DNA of 33,032 nucleotides from assembly GCA_003245525.1 (NCBI GenBank), contig QKCY01000491.1:1-33032 (forward strand), read 5' to 3'. The stretch comes from Victivallales bacterium. GTDB lineage: Bacteria; Verrucomicrobiota; Lentisphaeria; Oligosphaerales; Lenti-02. Within the stretch, counting starts at the first letter, position 1. Each line of letters opens with the position of its first letter. Shown here one piece after another: positions 3,519 through 15,311 of this stretch. The notes under the pieces are model-generated. The model was given only the letters and a program-made list of their open reading frames with translations. It did no database searches and was not told the DNA's origin. The position numbers and the translations under genes were made by a program.

Positions 3519-3704
3519 CGGGCGGAACTCCCAGATAAGAGCTCGGGAACAACCGACAGACTGCCCCCGGACAAGCAAGGCTTAACCTACACGCTGGTTG
3601 CCATCACGGCAAAAAGGGAGTGTTGGGTTCCCTGCCAGCCCCTTTGGTCCCTTTGCTTCCTGGAACTATGGTGAGGCGTCGTCCACCTACCCGAGGAGTC
3701 TGCC

Positions 3705-4703
3705 ATGCCTGCCAACACCGACTGGTTCCGTGCCGCCCGCTGGGGTGTCTTCAACCACTACTTGGCCTATGGGGCCAGCCACCAGGGGGGTGCCGGCGTC
3801 ACGCCGGAGGCCTGGAACCGTCGCGTCGATTCCTTCGACGTCCCCGGCCTGGTCCGCCAACTCCAGGCGGTGGGAGCCCGCTACTACTTCATCACCCTCG
3901 GGCAGAACTACGGCTTCTACTGCAGCCCGAATGCGACCTACGAGGAACTGGTCCGGCAGACCCCGAGCCGTCTGGCCAAGCGGGATCTGGTCGGCGAGTT
4001 GGCCGATGCGTTGGACGCCGTGGGCATCCGCCTCATGGCCTATCTGCCCTCCCACGCCCCCGCCATGAACCGCGAGGCGGTCCAGGCCCTCTCCTGCACC
4101 CCGCCCTGGGATGCCTCCAAGTGGCAATTGCGTCCCGGCACCTACCTGTGCGCTCCAGACAGCGACCAGCGCCTGACCGTGTTCCAGCGGCACTGGGAGG
4201 CCATCGTGCGCGAGTGGTCCCTGCGCTGGGGCCGCAAGGTCCACGGTTGGTGGATCGACGGCTCCTACTACGCCGACCTCATGTACCGCCATCCGGACGA
4301 ACCCAACTTCGCCAGCTTCGCCGCCGCGCTCAAGGCGGGAAACCCGGATTCCATCGTCGCCTTCAATCCCGGCGTGAAGGTCCCCGTGATCCGCTACACG
4401 GAACACGAGGACTACACGGCCGGCGAGGTGGCGGACGCCCTCCCCGTCGGCCGCTGGGGCAAAGACGGCTTCGGCCGCAGCGAGGGCACGGTGAACGGGG
4501 CCCAGTACCACCTGCTCACCTTCATGGGCGAGTACTGGGGCCGCGGCCTGCCCCGGTTCAGTACCGAGATGGTGATCGGCTACACCCAGTTCGTCAACGA
4601 CTGCGGCGGCGTGATCTCCTGGGACGTGCCCATCTCCGACGATGGCCGCATCCCCGAGGCCTTCATCGACCGCCTCGCCGCCCTCAACCAAGCTATTGGC
4701 TAG
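3705..4703 (+). CDS. Alpha-L-fucosidase-like (GH29-type) glycoside hydrolase, no signal peptide
   Basis: WFRAARWGVFNHYLAYG, FDVPGLVRQLQAVGARYYFITLGQNYGFYCSPN, KVHGWWIDGSYY (candidate nucleophile Asp). Confidence 0.75.
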   Translation: MPANTDWFRAARWGVFNHYLAYGASHQGGAGVTPEAWNRRVDSFDVPGLVRQLQAVGARYYFITLGQNYGFYCSPNATYEELVRQTPSRLAKRDLVGELADALDAVGIRLMAYLPSHAPAMNREAVQALSCTPPWDASKWQLRPGTYLCAPDSDQRLTVFQRHWEAIVREWSLRWGRKVHGWWIDGSYYADLMYRHPDEPNFASFAAALKAGNPDSIVAFNPGVKVPVIRYTEHEDYTAGEVADALPVGRWGKDGFGRSEGTVNGAQYHLLTFMGEYWGRGLPRFSTEMVIGYTQFVNDCGGVISWDVPISDDGRIPEAFIDRLAALNQAIG

Positions 4704-4713
4704 GAGCACCCTC

Positions 4714-5463
4714 ATGGGCTTCCCTGGAACCACCAGTGTCTGGCGCGGCTTCGACCGCTGGGATTTCACGTACGACGGCCGGGCCTGTATCGTCTGCGCC
4801 CCCCAGGCCGAGGCCCCGGGCCGTCCCTGGATCTGGCGCGCCCGGTTCTTCGACGCCTGGCCCGCCACCGATGTGGCCCTGCTCGAACGGGGCTTCCATC
4901 TGGTCTATATGGATGTGGCGGACATGTACGGCGCGCCCTGCGCGGTCGCCCATTGGGACGCTTTCTACGCCTACTTGGTTGGGACTCACGGCTTCGCCCC
5001 CAAGGCCGCCCTGGAAGGCTTGAGCCGGGGCGGACTCATCATCTACAACTGGGCCATCGCCAATCCCGACAAAGTGGCCTGCCTCTACGGCGACGCTCCC
5101 GTCTGCACCATCCGCAGTTGGCCGGCCGGCAAGGGCGTCGGCCCCGGCAGCCCGAACGACTGGGCGAAGTGCCTGAAGGCCTACGGTTTCACCGAGGAAC
5201 AAGCCCTCGCCTACGCGGGCAATCCCATCGACCGGCTCGCCCCCCTAGCCGCCGCCAACATCCCCCTCCTCCATGTGGTCGGCGACGCGGACGAACCCGT
5301 TCCGGTGGCCGAGAACACCGCCATCATCGAACAACGCTACCGGCAACTGGGTGGCCAGATCGAGGTGATCCACAAGCCGTCCTGCGGACACCACCCCCAC
5401 AGCCTGGAAGACGTCACGCCCATCGTCGATTTCATTCTCCGCCATACGGGGAAAGCGGAATAA
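4714..5463 (+). CDS. Alpha/beta hydrolase (prolyl-oligopeptidase/acetyl-esterase-like)
   Basis: GLSRGGLIIYNWAIANPDKVACLYGDAPV (nucleophile elbow GxSxGG), HVVGDADEPVPVAENTAIIEQRY, CGHHPHSLED. ATG at 4714 is 10 nt after the upstream stop. Confidence 0.82.
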   Translation: MGFPGTTSVWRGFDRWDFTYDGRACIVCAPQAEAPGRPWIWRARFFDAWPATDVALLERGFHLVYMDVADMYGAPCAVAHWDAFYAYLVGTHGFAPKAALEGLSRGGLIIYNWAIANPDKVACLYGDAPVCTIRSWPAGKGVGPGSPNDWAKCLKAYGFTEEQALAYAGNPIDRLAPLAAANIPLLHVVGDADEPVPVAENTAIIEQRYRQLGGQIEVIHKPSCGHHPHSLEDVTPIVDFILRHTGKAE

Positions 5464-5464
5464 T

Positions 5465-5597
5465 GGAATGGTGGAATGGTGGAATGCTGGAAACACAGGA
5501 ACCAGCCTGGCCGGACAGCCCCAGCATTGTCCTATCATTCCGCTCCCGTCGTCTTCCATTCTTCCATTCTTCCATTCTTCCATCATTCCACCATTCC
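5465..5597. repeat. Intergenic inverted repeat A with 8-nt periodic arms
   Basis: Left arm GGAATGGT GGAATGGT GGAATGCT (5465-5488). Right arm TTCCATTC x3, TTCCATCA, TTCCACCA, TTCC (5554-5597). Outer 14 bp GGAATGGTGGAATG/CATTCCACCATTCC is a perfect inverted repeat. Confidence 0.92.
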
Positions 5598-5618
5598 GCC
5601 CCCTCCTAGGAGCCTCCC

Positions 5619-7115
5619 ATGCCTACCTCCCGCAAGATCGTTTTCATCATGGTGGACACCCAGCGTTGGGACATGCTTGGCTGCTACGGCAATCCCGACC
5701 TGAAGACCCCCAATCTGGATCGGCTCGCCGGGGAAGGCATCCGGTTCGACCGGGCCTACACCTGCCAGCCGGTCTGCGGTCCGGCGCGGGCGGCGCTCTT
5801 CACCGGCACTTGGCCCCACACCAACGGCAGTTGGGGCAACAGCATGCCCCTGGGTCAGACCATCCGCACCCTTGGCCAGCGCCTCGCCAACGCGAACCTG
5901 CACACCGCCTACATCGGCAAGTGGCACCTCGACGGCGGCGACTACTTTGGCTACGGCATCTGTCCCGAAGGTTGGGACCCCGACTACTGGTACGACATGC
6001 GCACCTACCTGGAGGAACTGCCCGAGACAGAACGCGTCCGCTCGCGGCAGTTCGCCACCTGTCTGGAGGAGGGTTTCAGCGAAGAATTCACGTACGGACA
6101 CCGCTGCTCCAACCGGGCCGTCGACTTCCTGGAGAAGCACGCCGCAGAGGACTTCTGTCTAGTGGTCTCCTACGACGAGCCCCATGGTCCCTGTCTCTGT
6201 CCTGCCCCCTTCAACACCATGTACCGGGACTACGAGTTCCCGAAGACTCCCAGCGTCTGGGACCGGCTGGAGAACAAGCCCGCCCACCAGAAGGCCTGGG
6301 CCGGCAACGCCGTCAACCGCGACAACGAGGCGCTGAAGATCAAACGCGCCGCCTTCTTCGGCTGCAATTCCTACGTGGACTACGAAATCGGCCGGGTCCT
6401 GGCCGCCATCGAGCGCCATGCGCCGGACGCCCTCGTGGTCTACACCGCCGACCATGGCGACGCCCTGGCCAGCCACGCCATCGGTGGCAAGGGACCGGCC
6501 ATGTACGACGAGATCACCCGCATCCCCTTCCTCGTCCGCTGGCCCGGCGTCGCCCCGGCCGGGACAGTCTGCCCCCATCCCGTCTCCCATATCGACGTGG
6601 TGCCGACCCTGCTCGCCGCCGCCGGTGCCACCGTGCCACCCTGCCTGGAGGGCAAGAGCATGGTGCCCACTTTTGCCGATCCCAGCACTCGGCCCAACGA
6701 CTGCGTCTTCATAGAATTCAACCGCTACGAGGTGGACCACGACTGCTTCGGTGGGTTCCAACCCGTCCGGTGCGCCTTCGACGGCCGCTACAAGTTCGTC
6801 CTCAACCTGCTCTGCGAGGACGAACTCTACGACCTGGAGACCGACCCCTACGAGCTCGCCAATCTGCTCGATTCCCCCGACCACGCCGCGATCCGCGACC
6901 GGCTCCATGACCGGCTCCTACAATGGATGAACGAGACCCGCGATCCCTTCCGCGGCTACTACTGGGAGCGCCGCCCCTGGCGGACCGACGCCCGGCCCGC
7001 CACCTGGGGCTACACGGGCATGACCCGCCAGCGCGAAGACGACCCCGAGTACGAACCCCGTCAGCTCGACTATGATACCGGTTTGGCCATGGAGGCTGGC
7101 ACCCGCCAGAAATAG
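5619..7115 (+). CDS. Sulfatase (Cys-type arylsulfatase family), no signal peptide
   Basis: KIVFIMVDTQRWDMLGCYGNPDLKTPNLDRLAGEGIRFDRAY; active-site C-x-P-x-R as CGPAR (TGC at 5775-5777); GKWHLDGGDYFGYG; YTADHGDALASHAIGGKGPAMYDEITRIPFLVRWPG. Confidence 0.95.
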   Translation: MPTSRKIVFIMVDTQRWDMLGCYGNPDLKTPNLDRLAGEGIRFDRAYTCQPVCGPARAALFTGTWPHTNGSWGNSMPLGQTIRTLGQRLANANLHTAYIGKWHLDGGDYFGYGICPEGWDPDYWYDMRTYLEELPETERVRSRQFATCLEEGFSEEFTYGHRCSNRAVDFLEKHAAEDFCLVVSYDEPHGPCLCPAPFNTMYRDYEFPKTPSVWDRLENKPAHQKAWAGNAVNRDNEALKIKRAAFFGCNSYVDYEIGRVLAAIERHAPDALVVYTADHGDALASHAIGGKGPAMYDEITRIPFLVRWPGVAPAGTVCPHPVSHIDVVPTLLAAAGATVPPCLEGKSMVPTFADPSTRPNDCVFIEFNRYEVDHDCFGGFQPVRCAFDGRYKFVLNLLCEDELYDLETDPYELANLLDSPDHAAIRDRLHDRLLQWMNETRDPFRGYYWERRPWRTDARPATWGYTGMTRQREDDPEYEPRQLDYDTGLAMEAGTRQK

Positions 7116-7155
7116 ATCTCTCCTGGGAACGCCGGGCCCCAGTTCGGCGGAATCC

Positions 7156-7217
7156 AAAGGACCGAAGGGACGCAGGGGACCGAAAGGACAGGGGTCCCTT
7201 TGATCCTTTTCGTCCCG
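7156..7217. repeat. Intergenic inverted repeat D with 9-nt degenerate units, between convergent genes
   Basis: Left arm AAAGGACCG AAGGGACGC AGGGGACCG AAAGGAC (7156-7189). Right arm TCCCTTTGATCCTTTTCGTCCCG (7195-7217). Confidence 0.75.
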
Positions 7218-7233
7218 TGTTTCCTTGCCTACT

Positions 7234-8268
7234 TCAGGCGAGGTCGGCCAGACGATAGCAGGCGGCGGAGTGGTCGTTGCCGAGGTCGGTCAAGGAAGGC
7301 GGGCCGCCCTGGTCGCAGACGCCAGGCTTGAAGTGGGGGCAGCGGGGATGGAAGGGGCAGCCGGGGGGAATCGCGGTGAGGGAGGGAACACTCCCCCGGA
7401 TGCTAGGCAGGTGTTCCTCGTCCAGGCTCAGGCTGGGCAGGGAGGCCAGGAGGCCCTGGGTATAGGGGTGACGCGGGGCTTTCATTACGGTGCGCACGTC
7501 GGCCCGTTCCACGACCCGACCTAGATACATCACAGCCACATCGTCCGCTGTCTGGGCGACCACGCCCAGATCGTGGGTGATGAGCAGGATCGAGGTGCCG
7601 GTCCGCTTCTGCAAGCCCTTCATCAGGCCGAGAATCTGGGCCTGGATGGTGACATCGAGAGCGGTGGTAGGCTCGTCGGCGATGAGCAGGTCGGGATCGC
7701 AGACCAGAGCCATGGCGATGACCACGCGCTGGCGCATGCCGCCGCTCATTTCGAAGGGGTACTGGTCGATGCGCCGTTCGGCCCCCGGGATGCCGACACG
7801 GGTCAGCATCTCGATGGCCTTCTGGCGGGCGGCTTCGGGGGTCATGTCCTGGTGGATCAGGATGGCCTCGGTGATCTGGTTGCCCACCGTGTGGACCGGG
7901 CTGAGCGCGGTCATGGGCTCCTGGAAGATCATACTGATGGCCCCGCCGCGCAGGGAGAACAGCTTCTCGTCGTCCTCGGCCAGAGCCAGGATGTCCACGC
8001 TATCGCCCGACTTCGGCTGGTAGCGGATGGAGCCACCGAGAATCCGACCGGGCCGCTGGATGAGGCGCAGGATGGAGTAGGAGGTCACGCTCTTGCCGCA
8101 CCCGCTCTCCCCTACCACAGCGGTGGTCCGGCCTCGGCGAATGGCGAGGCTGACGCCGTCCACGGCCCGGACTTCGCCCTCGTGGGTGAAAAAGGAGACC
8201 CGCAGGTCCTGGATACTCAGCAGTACATCGGGGGAAGCGGACACAGTTGGCGAGGCAGCAGGCGTCAT
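7234..8268 (-). CDS. Oligopeptide/dipeptide ABC transporter ATP-binding protein (DppD/OppD-like)
   Basis: Walker A GESGCGKS, signature MSGGMRQRV, Walker B LLIADEPTTALDVT, C-terminal Cys motif GCPFHPRCPHFKPGVCDQGGP typical of Opp/Dpp ATPases. Confidence 0.95.
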   Translation of the reverse strand: MTPAASPTVSASPDVLLSIQDLRVSFFTHEGEVRAVDGVSLAIRRGRTTAVVGESGCGKSVTSYSILRLIQRPGRILGGSIRYQPKSGDSVDILALAEDDEKLFSLRGGAISMIFQEPMTALSPVHTVGNQITEAILIHQDMTPEAARQKAIEMLTRVGIPGAERRIDQYPFEMSGGMRQRVVIAMALVCDPDLLIADEPTTALDVTIQAQILGLMKGLQKRTGTSILLITHDLGVVAQTADDVAVMYLGRVVERADVRTVMKAPRHPYTQGLLASLPSLSLDEEHLPSIRGSVPSLTAIPPGCPFHPRCPHFKPGVCDQGGPPSLTDLGNDHSAACYRLADLA

Positions 8269-8440
8269 GGCGAATCCAAATGAAAATGACCAGCCAGCAA
8301 CGTAGCCGCCGACCCCGCAAATGCCATCGCGTCAGCGGCGACCGGGCTTGGCGGCGGCACGGATGGATATCTGCGCCCGCGAACCTACATTTTGGGGTTG
8401 TCCAATCCGTCCCCCACCCTCGGGAGTCCCGGCGCATCCC

Positions 8441-9103
8441 ATGTTCATCACGGAGCTATGGTCAAATCCGGTCCACTTCGTCTGCTGGACAGTCATGGTC
8501 GTCTTTTCGGTCTGCTGCCATGAGCTGGCCCACGTCTACGCCGCGCTCAACGAAGGGGACGACACGGCCGCCCGCCGGGGGTATCTCACCCTCGATCCCC
8601 TGAAGCTGATGGGCCCCCAATCGCTGCTCGCGCTCGCCTTTCTCGGCATCGCGTGGGGGGCGGTTCCCGTCACGCTCAGCAAGTTCCGGAACCGCTACAG
8701 CCACGCCCTGGTGGCCGCCTCCGGGCCATCGACCAATCTGTTGCTGGGAGTCGTCTTCGCCTTTGCCGCCGCCTTCGCCATGGCCCACGCCGAGGGAGCG
8801 GAGACCGTCGGCATGTTCGGCACCTTCTTCAAGACCGGCCTGGAGGTGAACTGCATGCTGGCCCTGCTGAACATTCTGCCGATCCCCATGTTCGATGGCT
8901 GGGAAGTGGCCGCCTACGTCGCCCCCTCCCTCAACCGGATCCCCGCCGAAAAGCGCTACGTGGGCGGCTGGATCGCGCTCATGGTGCTCTTCGTCACCCC
9001 GCTCTCCCGGGTCCTCTGGAGCGGGGCTTTCTACTTGCGGGACGTGTTTCTGGACACGGCCATTCGTCTGGTTTCGTTGGTGAGTCCCGCGAACGGCTTG
9101 TAA
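8441..9103 (+). CDS. Site-2 protease-like M50 family membrane metallopeptidase
   Basis: HELAH zinc motif in a first TM, AASGPSTNLLLG, NILPIPMFDGW, multiple TMs. Confidence 0.85.
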   Translation: MFITELWSNPVHFVCWTVMVVFSVCCHELAHVYAALNEGDDTAARRGYLTLDPLKLMGPQSLLALAFLGIAWGAVPVTLSKFRNRYSHALVAASGPSTNLLLGVVFAFAAAFAMAHAEGAETVGMFGTFFKTGLEVNCMLALLNILPIPMFDGWEVAAYVAPSLNRIPAEKRYVGGWIALMVLFVTPLSRVLWSGAFYLRDVFLDTAIRLVSLVSPANGL

Positions 9104-9116
9104 GGAACTCCGTCGC

Positions 9117-10742
9117 ATGTTGCGCCGCACTCTCATCGCCCTCATGCCCTTGGTCATCATCATCGCCTTGCCATTGCTGATGCGCCGGGACGAGGTGAAG
9201 GACGATCCCACGGCCGAGCAGCTGGTCATCGTCAGCCCCCACAACGAAGCCATCCGGTGGGAGTTCGAGAACGCCTTCCAGAAGTACTGCCGGGAACGCT
9301 ACAACCGCAAGGTGGACATCGACTGGCGGACGCCCGGGGGGACCAGCGAGATCATCCTCTACCTCCAGGGCGGCTACGTGGCCTCCTTCCGCCAAGCCTG
9401 GGAACAGCAGGACAAGGAATGGAGCAGCCAGATCGAGGCCGGATTCCTGGACCGCAAGCTCAAGCAGGCGGACGCCGACGCCACCGTCTGGGAGGCCCGC
9501 CAGACCTTCCTCGCCTCTTCGGCCAGTGTCGGCATCGACATTCTGTTCGGCGGCGGACAGTACGACCTCGCCAACCTCGCCAAACAGGGCATCCTGGTCC
9601 CCGCCGGGGTGCGCGAGCGCCATCCCGAGTGGTTCGCCGGCCCCCAACCCATCCTGGACAACGGGTTGAGCGGCGAAATCTGGTGCGACCCCAACGACTG
9701 CTACTACGGGGCCTGCCTTTCCTCCTTCGGCATCTGCTACAATCTCGACCGACTGGCGGCCCTTGGCTACGACGTCAACGATCCCGCCGCCCTGCCCTCC
9801 ACCTGGGAAAGTCTCGCCGATCCCCGGCTCTTCGGCCAAGTGGCCGCCGCCGATCCCTCCAAGAGCGGTTCGATCACCAAGTGCTTCGAGATGCTGGTCC
9901 AGCAGCGCATGGCCCAAACCGTGCAGGCCGCCGGACCGGATCTCTCCCAGGAGCAGTTGGCCGCCGCCGTCGGCCAGGGCTGGGTGGACGCCATGGACCT
10001 GATCAAACGCATTGGCGGCAACTCCCGCTACTACACCTTCTCCGCCAGCAAGGTGCCGGTGGACGTGGCGCGAGGCAATCTGGCGGCAGGCATGTGCATC
10101 GACTTCTACGGCGGCAGCCAGGCCGAGTGGGAGGAACTGCACGTGGGGCGCGAGACCATGCGCTACGTGACCCCCGAGGGAGGTTCCTCCATCTCCGCCG
10201 ACCCGATCGGCATCCTGCGCGGGGCTCCGCACCGTGACTTGGCCGAGCTGTTTGTGGATTTCGTCCTCTCGCCCGAGGGGCAGAAGCTCTGGGGCTACCG
10301 GGTCGGCGAGCCGGGCGGCCCGGTGCAGTACGCCTTGCGCCGTCCGCCGATCCGCCGCGACTTCTACACCCCCGAATACCAGGTCCATATGTCGGACCCG
10401 AACTACAACCCCTTCGTCCTGGCCGCCGAGTTCGAGTACCATGGCGAGTGGACCGGGCCTCTCTTCGGCCTGATCCGCGTACTGCTGCGGGCCATGGTCA
10501 TCGATCCCCATCCCGAACTGCGCGATGCCTGGCAGGCCATCCTCGATGCCGGTGGCCCCGAGGCCGTTCCCGACGCCATGGCCGCCCTGCGCCGCCTGCC
10601 CTTCGAGCTGAAGGATGCGGGAGCGGAGGCCAAGGCGATTCGCCTGCCCGAGGACCGCGTCTTCCGGATGCGGGACTGGGGCGAGTTCTTCCGCGCCTCC
10701 TACCGGGAGGCCGAACGCCTGGCCCGTACCCATGCCCCCTGA
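9117..10742 (+). CDS. Extracellular solute-binding protein (family 1-like), N-terminal membrane anchor
   Basis: MLRRTLIALMPLVIIIALPLLMRRDEVKDD then LVIVSPHNEAIRWEFENAFQKYCRERYNRKVDIDW...GGGQYDLANLAKQGILVP...SGEIWCDPNDCYYGACLSSFGICYN...LADPRLFGQVAAADPSKSGS; typical binding-protein fold signatures. Confidence 0.82.
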   Translation: MLRRTLIALMPLVIIIALPLLMRRDEVKDDPTAEQLVIVSPHNEAIRWEFENAFQKYCRERYNRKVDIDWRTPGGTSEIILYLQGGYVASFRQAWEQQDKEWSSQIEAGFLDRKLKQADADATVWEARQTFLASSASVGIDILFGGGQYDLANLAKQGILVPAGVRERHPEWFAGPQPILDNGLSGEIWCDPNDCYYGACLSSFGICYNLDRLAALGYDVNDPAALPSTWESLADPRLFGQVAAADPSKSGSITKCFEMLVQQRMAQTVQAAGPDLSQEQLAAAVGQGWVDAMDLIKRIGGNSRYYTFSASKVPVDVARGNLAAGMCIDFYGGSQAEWEELHVGRETMRYVTPEGGSSISADPIGILRGAPHRDLAELFVDFVLSPEGQKLWGYRVGEPGGPVQYALRRPPIRRDFYTPEYQVHMSDPNYNPFVLAAEFEYHGEWTGPLFGLIRVLLRAMVIDPHPELRDAWQAILDAGGPEAVPDAMAALRRLPFELKDAGAEAKAIRLPEDRVFRMRDWGEFFRASYREAERLARTHAP

Positions 10743-12786
10743 TGCCGCGACGATCCCCGCCTACCGCCGGAAGGAACTGGCCTACGAGGTCATCGTCCTC
10801 CTGCTGGGCATCCCGTTCCTCCTCATGCTGGCGGCCTGCGCCGACGGCGACGAGGCGCTCTTTGCGCCCTGGGGCCAAGTCTCGCCCATCCTGCTCTCCC
10901 TGGCGGGCGGCTATCTGCTGCTGGTCGTCGGCGGCTTTCTGGTCCCGGCCTGGCGGGGCAGTTCTCCGGGCCACTTGACCCGCAGTGTGCTCTCTCTGGC
11001 CTTCGTGCCCATCTACATTCTCATGTTCTCCGTCCACAAGGGGCTGGCCCTGACTGGCTTTGCCTGGAGCTACCTCGCCTCCCAGTGTCTGCTGCGGGCT
11101 TCGTCGGCGGAGAGCGCGGAGGAGGACTACGAGGGTTTGGCCTTCTCGGTCTCCGTGCTGGTCATGGCAGGCACCCTTGCGGCCGCCTTGCTGGACACCG
11201 GCTACGGTCTGCTCTTCGGCATGGTCGGCCAAGTGGCGGCCTGGCTCTTCGCCGTGCTGGCGGTGGCTGCTCTCACGATCCTGCGCACTCCCGCCGTGCC
11301 ATCGCGGGCCCTGGGCACCATCGAACATCTGCTGACCGGGTTGGGACTGGTCTGCCTGACCCAACCGGAGTGGCGGGATGCGGCCTTGCCCATCTTCGCC
11401 GCCCGGCTGGCCCTTACCGTGCTGCGCGGCTGGGAGAGGCGCTACGGATTCGACTCTCTCTGGCGGCACCTCACGGAACGGCCCACCCATCTGCTGGTCC
11501 TCAGCTTCGCGGCCGTGATTCTGGTCGGGACCCTGATCCTCACCCTGCCAGTCGCCACCAGCCACCATGTGGGCCTTTCGCCTCTCGACGCCCTGTTCAC
11601 CTCCACTAGCGCCACCTGCGTGACCGGACTGATCGTGGTGGATACGGGCAGTGCCTTCTCCCTCTTCGGCCAACTCGTGGTGCTGGCCCTGATCCAGATC
11701 GGCGGCCTCGGCATCATGACCATATCGATCTTCGCCGCCCTCGCGCTCGGTCGCCGAGTCGGTCTGCGCAGCGAATTCGCCGTAGGCGAGATGATCGGGG
11801 AGCAACGCAACCGCATGGCCCGACGCCTGTTGTACTTCATCGTCCTGGTCACGGCAGTCATCGAACTGGCCGGAGCCGTGGCTCTGGCCTACGGCTTCCG
11901 CCAGTACCAGGGCTACGGCCTGGGCAAGGCGGCGTACTACGGACTGTTCCACAGCATCAGCGCCTTCTGCAACGCCGGGTTCGCCCTCTTTGCGGACAGT
12001 TTCGTCGGCTTGGCCAACGTCCCCTTCTTCCCTCTGGTTCTCTCGGCCCTGATCACGCTGGGCGGGCTGGGCTTCGGCGTGCTCTACACCCTCTTCCGCC
12101 TGCCGGGCAGCCGGCGCGCCAACTATGGCCCGCACGTGAAACTGGTCCTGGTGACCAGTGTGGTGCTGACCGTGGGGGGAACAGTCTTCTTCCTGATCGC
12201 GGAGCGTAGCCATTCGCTGGCCGGGCTCTCCCTCCGCGACTCCCTGGTGAACGCCTGGTTCCAGTCGGTCACTGCCCGCACGGCCGGCTTCAACACCGTC
12301 GATCTCACTCAGTTCTCCGCCGCTTCGAACCTGCTGATGAACCTCCTCATGTTTATCGGTGCGGCCCCTGGCTCCACCGGCGGCGGGGTGAAGGTGACAA
12401 CCATCGCCGTGCTGTTCCTGCTCGTCCGCTCGGTGCTCCGCGGCCATGAGCGGGTCAACGCTTTTGGCCGCTGCATCGAGCCCGCGACCGTGGTGAAGTC
12501 CACGGTCCTCATCTGCCTCTCCGCCCTGGCGGTGACCGTGTCGGCCATGGTCCTGCTCGTCACCCAGCACATCTCCACCGTGGACCTCCTCTTCGAGACC
12601 GTCTCCGCCTTTGGCACGGTCGGCCTTTCGCGCGGTGCCACGGGGCAACTGGACGCCCTGGGCAAACTCGTCATCGTCGGACTCATGTTCATTGGCCGCG
12701 TCGGCCCTCTCACCCTTCTCGTCATGATGCGTCCCCGCCGGGGTTCCAGCATCGAGTACCCAGCCGCCCGCGTCATGGTGGGCTAG
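10732..12786 (+). CDS. TrkH/KtrB family potassium uptake protein with ~250-aa N-terminal membrane extension
   Basis: Core DALFTSTSATCVTGLIVVDTG, LIQIGGLGIMT, HSISAFCNAGFALF, TARTAGFNTVDL, APGSTGGGVKV, FETVSAFGTVGLS. Start MPPDAATIPAYRR overlaps the upstream stop by 11 nt. Confidence 0.92.
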   Translation: MPPDAATIPAYRRKELAYEVIVLLLGIPFLLMLAACADGDEALFAPWGQVSPILLSLAGGYLLLVVGGFLVPAWRGSSPGHLTRSVLSLAFVPIYILMFSVHKGLALTGFAWSYLASQCLLRASSAESAEEDYEGLAFSVSVLVMAGTLAAALLDTGYGLLFGMVGQVAAWLFAVLAVAALTILRTPAVPSRALGTIEHLLTGLGLVCLTQPEWRDAALPIFAARLALTVLRGWERRYGFDSLWRHLTERPTHLLVLSFAAVILVGTLILTLPVATSHHVGLSPLDALFTSTSATCVTGLIVVDTGSAFSLFGQLVVLALIQIGGLGIMTISIFAALALGRRVGLRSEFAVGEMIGEQRNRMARRLLYFIVLVTAVIELAGAVALAYGFRQYQGYGLGKAAYYGLFHSISAFCNAGFALFADSFVGLANVPFFPLVLSALITLGGLGFGVLYTLFRLPGSRRANYGPHVKLVLVTSVVLTVGGTVFFLIAERSHSLAGLSLRDSLVNAWFQSVTARTAGFNTVDLTQFSAASNLLMNLLMFIGAAPGSTGGGVKVTTIAVLFLLVRSVLRGHERVNAFGRCIEPATVVKSTVLICLSALAVTVSAMVLLVTQHISTVDLLFETVSAFGTVGLSRGATGQLDALGKLVIVGLMFIGRVGPLTLLVMMRPRRGSSIEYPAARVMVG

Positions 12787-12845
12787 GCCGCGCCAAGCGG
12801 CGGAACCGAGGCTATGTTCCGCCAGCAACCGAAGGAACCAACGGG

Positions 12846-13523
12846 ATGAAGCGACAGATTGCAGTGATCGGACTCGGTATCTTCGGCCGGGAAGTGGCCC
12901 TGTCCTTGGCCCAACGCGGGTTCTCGGTGATGGCCATCGATGCCGAAGCCGAGCCCGTGGAGGAGATCAAGGACGACGTGGCCCAGGCCCTGGTGCTGGA
13001 CACCACCAACGAGCACGCCCTGCTCGAAGCCAAGATCGACGAGATCGAGGTGGTGGTGAACGCCATCGGCACCCAGCACATCGAGAATAGCATCCTCACC
13101 ACCGCCCTCCTCCGCCAGCTTGGCGTCTCCCATATCATCGCCCGCGCCACTGCGCCCCTCCATGCCCGCATCCTCCGCCAGGTGGGTGCCCATGAGGTCG
13201 TGAACCCCGAGGAGGACATGGCCCGCAAGCTCGCCCACCAGCTCGCCCGGCCCGGCCTGCGGGAAATCCTCCCCCTGGCCGAGGACGTCTGCGTGGCGGA
13301 GCTTCCCGTGCCCGCCAGTTTCGTCGGGCGCACCCTCGCCCAGCTCGACGTGCGGCGGCATTACGGGGTCAACGTCATCGGCGTCCAGCGCCTGCCCGCT
13401 GGCGGCGGCGAGCGCCGCATGGTCCTGAACATCGTGCCCAACCAGGACGCCTTCCAGGAAGGCGACGTGCTGGTGGTCATCGGTCGCGACGAGGATGTGG
13501 ACCGCCTCGGCGGTCTGGGTTGA
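12846..13523 (+). CDS. TrkA/KtrA family potassium uptake regulator (NAD-binding RCK)
   Basis: MKRQIAVIGLGIFGREVALSLAQRGFSVMAIDAE; RCK_N/RCK_C layout, 225 aa, immediately downstream of trkH-like gene. Confidence 0.93.
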   Translation: MKRQIAVIGLGIFGREVALSLAQRGFSVMAIDAEAEPVEEIKDDVAQALVLDTTNEHALLEAKIDEIEVVVNAIGTQHIENSILTTALLRQLGVSHIIARATAPLHARILRQVGAHEVVNPEEDMARKLAHQLARPGLREILPLAEDVCVAELPVPASFVGRTLAQLDVRRHYGVNVIGVQRLPAGGGERRMVLNIVPNQDAFQEGDVLVVIGRDEDVDRLGGLG

Positions 13524-13526
13524 TTC

Positions 13527-13669
13527 ATTCACCACGAAGGCACGAAGAACACGAAGTGAAGACAGTAGGAGCAGAGACAGTCCCGCACACCGCCCGGAGA
13601 CTCCGGGCGATGTGCGCTGTATTCCTCTCTCTTGCTTCCCTTCGTGACCTTCGTGCCTTCGTGGTGAAT
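13527..13669. repeat. Intergenic inverted repeat B (CACGAAGG type) with nested hairpin
   Basis: Perfect 21-bp arms ATTCACCACGAAGGCACGAAG (13527-13547) / CTTCGTGCCTTCGTGGTGAAT (13649-13669). Nested hairpin CGCACACCGCCCGGAG (13584-13599) / CTCCGGGCGATGTGCG (13601-13616). Confidence 0.95.
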
Positions 13670-13698
13670 ACGGTTTTCTAGGAGAAAGGAAAACGGCG

Positions 13699-15096
13699 GT
13701 GAATGCTCCGTTGCTTGGCTTCTGTCCCATCGGGAAGTTCGTCTTCAGCAACGCGGACGCCGTCCGCCTGAAGGGGGAGATCCGGGCGCGGCTGCTCTCC
13801 TGGCAGATTCCCTTTGTGGATTTGGAGGGCGTCCTGGAGGACGGTTTGGTCAAGGACCAGGCCCACGTCAACGCCGTGGTCGACCACTTCCGCGCCGCCG
13901 GGGTGGAGGCGCTGTTCATGCCCCACTGCAACTTCGGCACCGAGGGCGCCGTCGGGATGATCGCCCGCAAACTCGGCGTGCCCGTGCTCCTCTGGGGGCC
14001 CCGCGACGAGGCCCCGCTGCCCGACGGCACCCGCCTGCGCGACACCCTCTGCGGCCTCTTCGCCTCCAGCAACGTCCTGCGCAAGCTCGGCGTCCCCTTC
14101 ACCTACCTGGAGAACTGCCGCCTGGACGATCCCCCCTTCGCCCAAGGGCTCGACACCTTCCTCCGCGCCGCCCACGCCGCCAACGCCCTCCGCCAGGGCA
14201 TCAAGATCGGCCATATCGGCCAGCGTATCGACTTCTTCTGGACCACCATCGTCAACGAGCGCGAACTGCTTGAGCGTTTCAACGTCGAGGTCCTTCCCCT
14301 CGATCTGGTGGACTTCATCGCCCAATCGAAGGACCGGGTCCGCCAGGGCCGCGCGGGGTACGAGAAGGAACTGGCCGAACTGCGCCAGCACGCCCAGATC
14401 ACCGGGTTCACAGACGATACCCCCATGCTCCACGTCCTCGCCATGCGCGACCAGATGCTCGCCCTCGGCGAGACCCATGGCCTCGACGCCCTGGCCGTGC
14501 AGGAGTTCACCTCCCTGGTCGATGCTATGGGCGCCTACTGCTGCTACGCGGAGTCTGCCGTGGGCGACCGCCTCACCATCGCCTACGAATCCGACCTCCA
14601 TGGAGCCATCAGCAACGTCCTCGCCCAGCGCGCCACCCTCGGCAGCAGCCCCGCCTTCCTGGCCGAATTCGTCGTCCGCCACCCCGAGAACGACAACGCC
14701 GGCTGCGTCTGGCACGCCGGTGCCCCCCTCAGCCTCCGCGACCCCGCCGACCCCCTCCGCATCGGCCAGCATTGGATTCTCCCCAGCCCCCTTGCCGGCA
14801 TGACCCACTTCCGCCTCCGCCCCGGAGACGTCACCATGGCCCGCTTCGACGGCGCGGGCGACGACTACCAGCTCGCCATCGGCCAAGCCGCCACCTGCGA
14901 CGGCCCCGCCACCCAGAACAACTACTGCTGGGTCGAAGTCGACAACTGGCCCCACTGGGAGCGCACCCTCATGGAAGGCCCCTTCATCCACCACATGGCC
15001 ATGGTCTACGGCCATTGCGGCGACGCCCTCCAAGAAGCCTGCAAATACATCCCCAACCTTGCTCCGGTACGGCTGGATGGAGACAAGCAGAGATAA
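13699..15096 (+). CDS. L-fucose/L-arabinose isomerase-like family protein
   Basis: GTG start; fold-type motifs FRAAGVEALFMPHCNFGTEGAVGMIARKLGVPVLLWGPRDE, IKIGHIGQRIDFFWTTIVNERELLERFNVEVLPLDLVDFI, CYAESAVGDRLTIAYESDLHGAIS. Confidence 0.72.
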   Translation: MNAPLLGFCPIGKFVFSNADAVRLKGEIRARLLSWQIPFVDLEGVLEDGLVKDQAHVNAVVDHFRAAGVEALFMPHCNFGTEGAVGMIARKLGVPVLLWGPRDEAPLPDGTRLRDTLCGLFASSNVLRKLGVPFTYLENCRLDDPPFAQGLDTFLRAAHAANALRQGIKIGHIGQRIDFFWTTIVNERELLERFNVEVLPLDLVDFIAQSKDRVRQGRAGYEKELAELRQHAQITGFTDDTPMLHVLAMRDQMLALGETHGLDALAVQEFTSLVDAMGAYCCYAESAVGDRLTIAYESDLHGAISNVLAQRATLGSSPAFLAEFVVRHPENDNAGCVWHAGAPLSLRDPADPLRIGQHWILPSPLAGMTHFRLRPGDVTMARFDGAGDDYQLAIGQAATCDGPATQNNYCWVEVDNWPHWERTLMEGPFIHHMAMVYGHCGDALQEACKYIPNLAPVRLDGDKQR

Positions 15097-15133
15097 CCGG
15101 CGGCACGGCGCACGGGCCGGAACGGGTCTTCGC

Positions 15134-15205
15134 TCGTAGTCCAGGCTTCAGCCTGCTGTTCCCTAGATCGCGCCGGAAAGGCACAGGCTGAAGCCTGGAC
15201 TACGA
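15134..15205. repeat. Intergenic inverted repeat C (TCGTAGTCCAGGCTTCAGCCTG type)
   Basis: Perfect 22-bp arms 15134-15155 / 15184-15205. Each arm itself contains CAGGCT-N2-AGCCTG. Confidence 0.95.
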
Positions 15206-15311
15206 ACGGGAACAGCCGTGAGAGTAGACCTTGGGATGGGGCCGGTATATCTTGGGTGGCGGCGTGGCCGCCCGGACAGTCGTCTGGGCGGTGGTATCTG
15301 GAGTGGATGCC

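Follow-up and report, generated by a model that had tools for sequence, protein, structure and literature searches.

What are the intergenic inverted repeats of this locus, whose arms are built of short, degenerate tandem units, and what generates them? The locus is a 33,032-nucleotide (nt) stretch of Victivallales bacterium DNA (the window), which is one entire contig of a 6.70-Mb genome assembled in 607 contigs and about 88% complete. An earlier note on the window had described four such repeats, A, B, D and D', with one design and different unit sequences. The present analysis indicates that A and B probably belong, as members without a gene, to a class of small mobile elements that are bracketed by hairpin arms and reside between operon genes, and D is probably a further gene-less member. 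An element of this class consists of two inverted arrays of 7-10-nt purine-rich units, of fixed polarity and with one unit dialect in both arms, and gene-bearing members carry a single small gene between the arms, encoding either a GxxExxY (PF13366) protein of the PD-(D/E)XK type or a four-helix-bundle protein (PF05635). Elements occupy junctions between co-directional operon genes, at a few nt from stop codons, and orthologous sites vary among relatives, being empty, gene-bearing, gene-less or occupied by an element of another dialect.

On the forward strand, element A (5465-5597) starts 1 nt past the stop of the gene at 4714-5463 with a 5′ arm of 3.6 TGGAATGG(R) units (5465-5492), continues with an interior without a gene (5493-5551, no strand assigned), and closes with a 3′ arm of inverted CCATTCTT/CCATCATT units (5552-5597), 21 nt 5′ of the start of a sulfatase gene (5619-7115). 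The 5′ arm of element B (13527-13669, same strand), composed of ACC-ACGAAG, GC-ACGAAG and AAC-ACGAAG units (13527-13561), begins 3 nt past the stop of a TrkA gene (12846-13523). It is followed by an inner GC-rich hairpin, CGCGCAACGCCCGGAG..CTCCGGGCGTTGCGCG (13584-13616), which is kept in other B copies and was absent from the earlier description, and by a 3′ arm of inverted CTTCGTG units (13635-13669), 29 nt 5′ of the next start (13699). When compared with 200 dinucleotide shuffles, the hairpin scores of A (18) and B (27.5) were equalled in 0/200 cases each, and the RNA folds have z values of -5.4 and -13.5, the latter at -94 kcal/mol. The core of A, TGGAATGNTGGAATG, occurs 117 times on the plus and 123 times on the minus strand of the 6.7-Mb genome and that of B 17 and 18 times, with reversed-pattern controls at 0/0 in both cases, so neither is a unique locus. 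Element D (7156-7217, +), an inverted repeat of 9-nt AAGGGACNN units between convergent genes, is weak when taken alone (score 11, 2/200 shuffles as good, RNA z -1.9). Its family has 18 matches against 1 for the reversed control in 1.45 Mb, with copies that include L178:17013 and L179:9690, and a stricter unit, AAAGGGACNN, has no matches genome-wide. Of the four repeats originally described, A and B are thus real, multi-copy elements and D stands less firmly, as one of a small family, whereas D' (3611-3660, +) was rejected, being not distinguishable from chance (159/200 shuffles as good, z -0.14).

A de novo scan for inverted repeats, covering 1.45 Mb of the genome, returned 98 intergenic repeats against 1 in shuffled sequence and 2 coding repeats against 3, and the arrays of family A are found 42 times in intergenic and 0 times in coding DNA, which bears out the earlier claim that the repeats lie between genes and not within open reading frames. 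The catalogue comprises two kinds of repeat, namely REPINs and short-unit arrays, the latter forming the families TGGAATGR (A), CACGAAGR (B), GCGCAGAG, GCGCCAAG, CACGGACNN, GTGGACNNN, ATGGGACNN and AAGGGACNN. A period of 8 prevails among the periodic arms (13/16). Family A arms have 2 to about 16 TGGAATGR units, their lengths varying independently between the two arms, and enclose interiors that are unlike between copies and often contain other repeats. Co-directional gene pairs flank 26 of 33 family A copies, compared with 317/548 for all intergenic regions of at least 60 nt in the sampled genome, and the median distance from the facing stop codon to the start of A and B is 11-13 nt. Family B is more uniform, with about 24 copies within the 35 core matches, each arm having three CACGAAG units, followed by the inner GC-rich hairpin. 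The B 7-mers are near-invariant and the two-base spacer between units 2 and 3 is mostly unpaired; the units, not perfect pairing, look constrained. A search of Rfam gave no match to a known RNA family at the gathering score.

The genes that belong to these arms are found in the same genome. At some loci, separate plus and minus arrays lie 400-640 nt apart, a spacing from which a GxxExxY gene was predicted inside, and the first such locus examined (L202) has one. All three PF13366 genes of the genome are in or beside array elements, each with its own unit: CACGGAA at L218, CGCCAAG at L219, where a frameshifted copy has a complete element on both sides, and CGCGAAG at L220, where the gene is next to an element and the contig edge prevents the bracketing test. 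The corresponding prediction for family A and PF05635 also held, the gene at L221 lying between TGGAATGG and CCATTCCA arms. Further PF05635 genes have 7-nt GTTCGGA arms (a broken copy, L222/L223), 9-nt ATGGGACNN arms (L225) and GTGGACNNN arms (L224), and that at L226 has a CACGGACNN element alongside without being bracketed. In total, 6 of the 7 testable genes of the two families are bracketed, each by a different unit family, compared with 6.6% of 877 ordinary genes at a score of at least 12, 1.4% at a score of at least 14, and 0/7 RAYT genes. Gene-less copies are commoner than gene-bearing ones. The open reading frame lists for L218 and L221 read the arms as ...SVSSVDGH and MVEWWNGGMVEWWNGG, in agreement with the suggestion that such repeats give rise to spurious reading frames.

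The same arrangement is found throughout the phylum. The 30 best PF13366 and the 30 best PF05635 loci, picked by protein score and not by their arms, were called bracketed when an inverted repeat scoring at least 12 spans the gene. This holds for 27/30 (90%) of the PF13366 loci, against 1.7% with shuffled flanks and 3.4% after an 800-nt shift, and for 26/30 (87%) of the PF05635 loci, against 3.7% with dinucleotide-shuffled flanks and 3.3% after the shift. Among named GxxExxY loci from many bacterial phyla and archaea, likewise picked by protein score and not by their arms, 62/77 are bracketed versus 11/262 shifted positions, and 57/77 versus 2/262 at a score of 14. The proposal of one architecture with several sequence families and a common generating mechanism is supported, and it extends across phyla. 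The pattern CRCNRAGNCRCNRAGN(1,2)CRCNRAG is present in 150/289 phylum genomes and 99/153 genera, far above the reversed control, and its arrays co-occur with PF13366 (counts 130/20/35/104) at an odds ratio of 19, uncorrected for phylogeny.

The arms differ between the two gene families. Those of GxxExxY are of the CRCNRAG type, as in B, with a spacing that alternates between 8 and 9 nt, and those of the four-helix bundle have 7-9-nt units, as in A, with a sharp 7-nt period in the PF05635 flanks (identity 0.39 at lag 7 versus 0.26). The two arms of an element match in dialect at 0.82, compared with 0.53 when re-paired and 0.62 for the top of 1000 shuffles, and their polarity is fixed (231/253 versus 63/83 motifs). 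Dialect similarity follows protein similarity (Mantel rho 0.30, p 5e-4, uncorrected for phylogeny). Five GxxExxY genes (L371, L375, L238, L252 and L370) have other units, such as CACTAAT, CGCAGAT and ACAGGAT, and the CRCNRAG consensus accordingly covers only part of the family. GxxExxY is found in 8 of 72,556 plasmid records and in 0 of 50,697 phage records.

Comparison of orthologous sites points to mobility; the sites concerned are those of gene-bearing relatives and of one gene-less copy (L390), not the window's own copies. Neighbours of GxxExxY elements include gatA/gatB, carA, an aceF/sucB-type E2 and further housekeeping operon genes, and the gene is co-directional with both neighbours at 33 of the 54 named loci for which both were called. 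Two congeners show reciprocal absence: an element is present in G228 where G035 has about 12 nt, and another lies between gatA and gatB in G035 where G228 has 45 nt. On cyanobacterial plasmids, four-helix-bundle genes with heptamer arms are located at nrdB|nrdA and TraM|hypothetical junctions, and searches with the joined flanks recovered empty versions of both, the nrd junction in Calothrix NIES-4105 and the TraM junction in two plasmids of Nostoc C057. Elsewhere the TraM junction is occupied: the full element is found there in Nostoc C052 and in N. edaphicum, Nostoc ATCC 53789 has a gene-less element of 260 nt whose arms are related (L390), and a further C057 plasmid has an element of 340 nt built of AATTCAA units. 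Through this series of states, hairpins without a gene, such as A and B, are connected with the gene-bearing elements.

Several further sites were observed. GxxExxY elements with unlike arm dialects are present at the gatA|gatB junction in four families of the phylum (L235, L237/L377, L242 and L255/L376), which reflects either an old insertion or a repeatedly used site. In two Flavobacterium species (L339 and L355), a GxxExxY element with clearly diverged arms lies directly past the stop of map (methionine aminopeptidase), at the map/methyltransferase junction. Four-helix-bundle genes are also found within CRISPR operons of cyanobacterial plasmids (cas6|cas4 and cas10|cmr3; L386 and L389), where such elements could be taken for cas genes.

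The GxxExxY protein has invariant E, D, ExK and QxxxY residues, which correspond to a D...ExK...QxxxY active site of the PD-(D/E)XK type. Its structural model (pLDDT 95) has Cas4 SSO0001 as the best PDB match and lambda exonuclease as the second, and modelling thus predicts a Cas4/lambda-exonuclease-like nuclease; a sequence search for a solved GxxExxY structure found none. PF05635 is a four-helix bundle (model pLDDT 89; PDB 2gsc and 2rld) and a weak, distant relative of Avd of the diversity-generating retroelements. In the mechanism that we propose, the encoded protein would recognise the arm units, including, in trans, those of gene-less copies with its own dialect, and would cause the hairpin to be copied to further intergenic junctions. 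By analogy with the rRNA intervening sequences, RNase III would cut the transcribed hairpin out and leave the neighbouring mRNAs usable, so that insertion inside operons would be tolerated. A broader reading is possible, although we hold it with less than even confidence: these would form a new superclass of selfish elements in bacteria and archaea, with arms built of octamers or heptamers that a protein recognises and with either a Cas4-like GxxExxY protein or an Avd/S23-like four-helix bundle as the mover. They would reside in housekeeping operons and be processed out of the mRNA, and STRRs, the Geobacter paired octamers and the 23S rRNA intervening sequences would be among their members.

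A number of observations weigh against assigning A and B to such a mobile class. A GxxExxY gene with the exact CACGAAG dialect of B was not found in the 88%-complete genome. No transposition has been observed, mobility being read from site comparisons, and the empty sites could in principle be deletions; no obvious target-site duplication is seen at two bacterial and two plasmid sites. One congener site (L381/L383) is filled in both genomes by different GxxExxY elements with different arms, which is a case of site re-use or fast replacement. The co-occurrence and similarity correlations were computed without phylogenetic correction. Covariation in family B, for which a structural check had been suggested, is no higher than in shuffles and was rejected as proof of RNA function. 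Finally, two unrelated proteins share one architecture and no catalytic activity is known for the four-helix bundle, so that a further enzyme may move both, the proteins being passengers or cofactors.

This last point leads to a rival explanation that we consider unlikely, namely mobile elements moved by a third factor, with the GxxExxY and four-helix-bundle proteins as cargo or modulators. The architecture common to two unrelated proteins and the absence of a known activity in the bundle speak for it, as does the distant relative Avd, which works with a reverse transcriptase, but the dialect tracks protein similarity, and GxxExxY appears, from its sequence and model, to retain a full nuclease active site. 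Quite improbable, in our view, is a role as host regulatory sites, in which a nucleoid or global regulator of the IHF/HU kind would bind the paired arrays, or mRNA would be stabilised or terminated by the hairpins. Paired arrays in Geobacter metallireducens have been read in that way (PMC2700814), and the position a few nt past stop codons, the strong RNA hairpins and the invariant B 7-mers with inter-unit spacers that are often unpaired, as for protein sites, would all fit. Such a role accords poorly with elements that are present in one congener and absent from another and that differ in the same way among plasmids at one junction, with a different unit sequence in every element of one genome, and with arms that enclose one specific small gene at 80-90% of the sampled loci of those genes. 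There is also no T-run 3′ of the A and B 3′ arms, which are hence not classic intrinsic terminators. A host role in RNA stability, RNA processing or protein binding, as raised in the earlier note, may exist as well but is not needed to account for the elements.

A passive origin, in which slippage generates the tandem repeats and chance or template switching inverts them without any dedicated protein, is highly improbable. Slippage clearly acts, as the independent variation of the A arms shows, but the association of the arrays with two gene families is a strong argument against a passive origin, and the fixed polarity, the recurrence of the CRCNRAG consensus across phyla and the restriction to intergenic DNA point the same way. 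We give hardly any credence to A and B being REPINs moved by RAYT transposases. The genome does have RAYTs flanked by their own REP families, and the window has a REPIN at 15131-15208, but A and B lack GTAG-tagged REP hairpins in their arms, the arrays bracket other genes, and 0/7 RAYT loci have A/B-type arms, which led us to reject RAYT as the mover. The earlier suggestion of a mobile or REP-like system is thus kept in its first half: a mobile system fits best, given two bracketed gene families, sites that are filled or empty and a majority of gene-less copies, whereas REP itself does not fit, no RAYT in the genome having such arms.

The foldback (FB) elements of Drosophila also have inverted arms composed of short subrepeats in tandem, with a variable central part, and are eukaryotic, far longer and unrelated in sequence. 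Among known bacterial systems, the REPIN/RAYT system (PMC3116915, PMC3733652) is alike in its paired inverted repeats between genes, its many gene-less copies per genome, its small genes each flanked by their own repeat family, and its near absence from plasmids and phages. It differs in having GTAG-tagged palindromes and HUH transposases, in place of 7-10-nt unit arrays and PD-(D/E)XK or four-helix-bundle proteins. The intervening sequence of Coxiella 23S rRNA is an element of about 430 nt with an inverted-repeat stem and a PF05635 (S23) reading frame inside; it is suspected to be selfish or mobile, and its excision by RNase III has been shown in vitro (PMC4990558). Inverted repeats likewise bracket the S23 frame in the gene-bearing relatives L221, L222 and L225 and in the 26/30 phylum loci, the window copies being gene-less. 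The rRNA elements are single and lie in rRNA helices, whereas those described here lie between protein genes, with tandem-unit arms and many gene-less copies.

The cyanobacterial STRR heptamers are 7-nt tandem intergenic repeats that form hairpins and are of unknown function (PMC2670836); such arrays bracket four-helix-bundle genes in Nostoc plasmids in the present analysis, and the literature searched does not describe them as the arms of an element that carries a gene. In G. metallireducens, paired octanucleotide sites of classes 1-3, interpreted as putative IHF/HU global regulator sites, occur in many copies as paired arrays of 7-8-nt units on opposite strands, at varying distances (PMC2700814), as A and B do. 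Their class 2 unit, TCTCCGTS, is complementary to a CACGGAGA unit, and no gene association is stated there. The arm architecture (Geobacter, STRR) and S23-bearing intervening sequences are thus already known. Searches for the unit sequences as DNA strings returned no relevant paper, and none of the papers in the searched open-access library that mention GxxExxY or PF13366 concerns repeats. The link between tandem-unit arms and the two gene families appears undescribed in that library, subscription papers and preprints lying outside the search.

Short intergenic tandem arrays, among them STRRs, paired octamers and the repeats behind spurious HEGHEG or EWWNGG reading frames, have appeared in the literature for decades with no consensus on what they do, and GxxExxY and four-helix-bundle genes are very common "hypothetical" genes without a known role. 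Linking the two gives both a testable identity, as element and gene, suggests a Cas4-like nuclease family that acts on mobile hairpins in many phyla, and provides the 23S rRNA intervening sequences with a large set of intergenic relatives.

Some minor features of the repeats deserve mention. Three B copies (L016, L026 and L040) have an extra insert of about 280 nt, a CGGAGTCCCGCC..GGCGGGACTCCG-type hairpin that represents a second repeat family nested in their 3′ part. Several contigs (L123 and L133/L131/L139) break off within long TGGAATGA arrays; family A is thus under-assembled, and its copy number is a lower bound. The repeat at 15131-15208 (+) is an ordinary REPIN, of another, known kind than A and B, formed by two inverted GTAG-tagged REPs (GTAGTC and the hairpin CAGGCT-TC-AGCCTG), with an RNA z of -7.3 and about 33 matches of its REP family in the genome; a GTAG-like tag with a palindrome in each arm is present only here, and A, B and D are without it. 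Eight Y1_Tnp/RAYT matches (L180-L187) are found in the genome, and the REP family of 15131-15208 is beside none of them. At six of these loci a distinct REP family lies beside the gene, and one genome thus hosts at least six RAYT/REP pairs.

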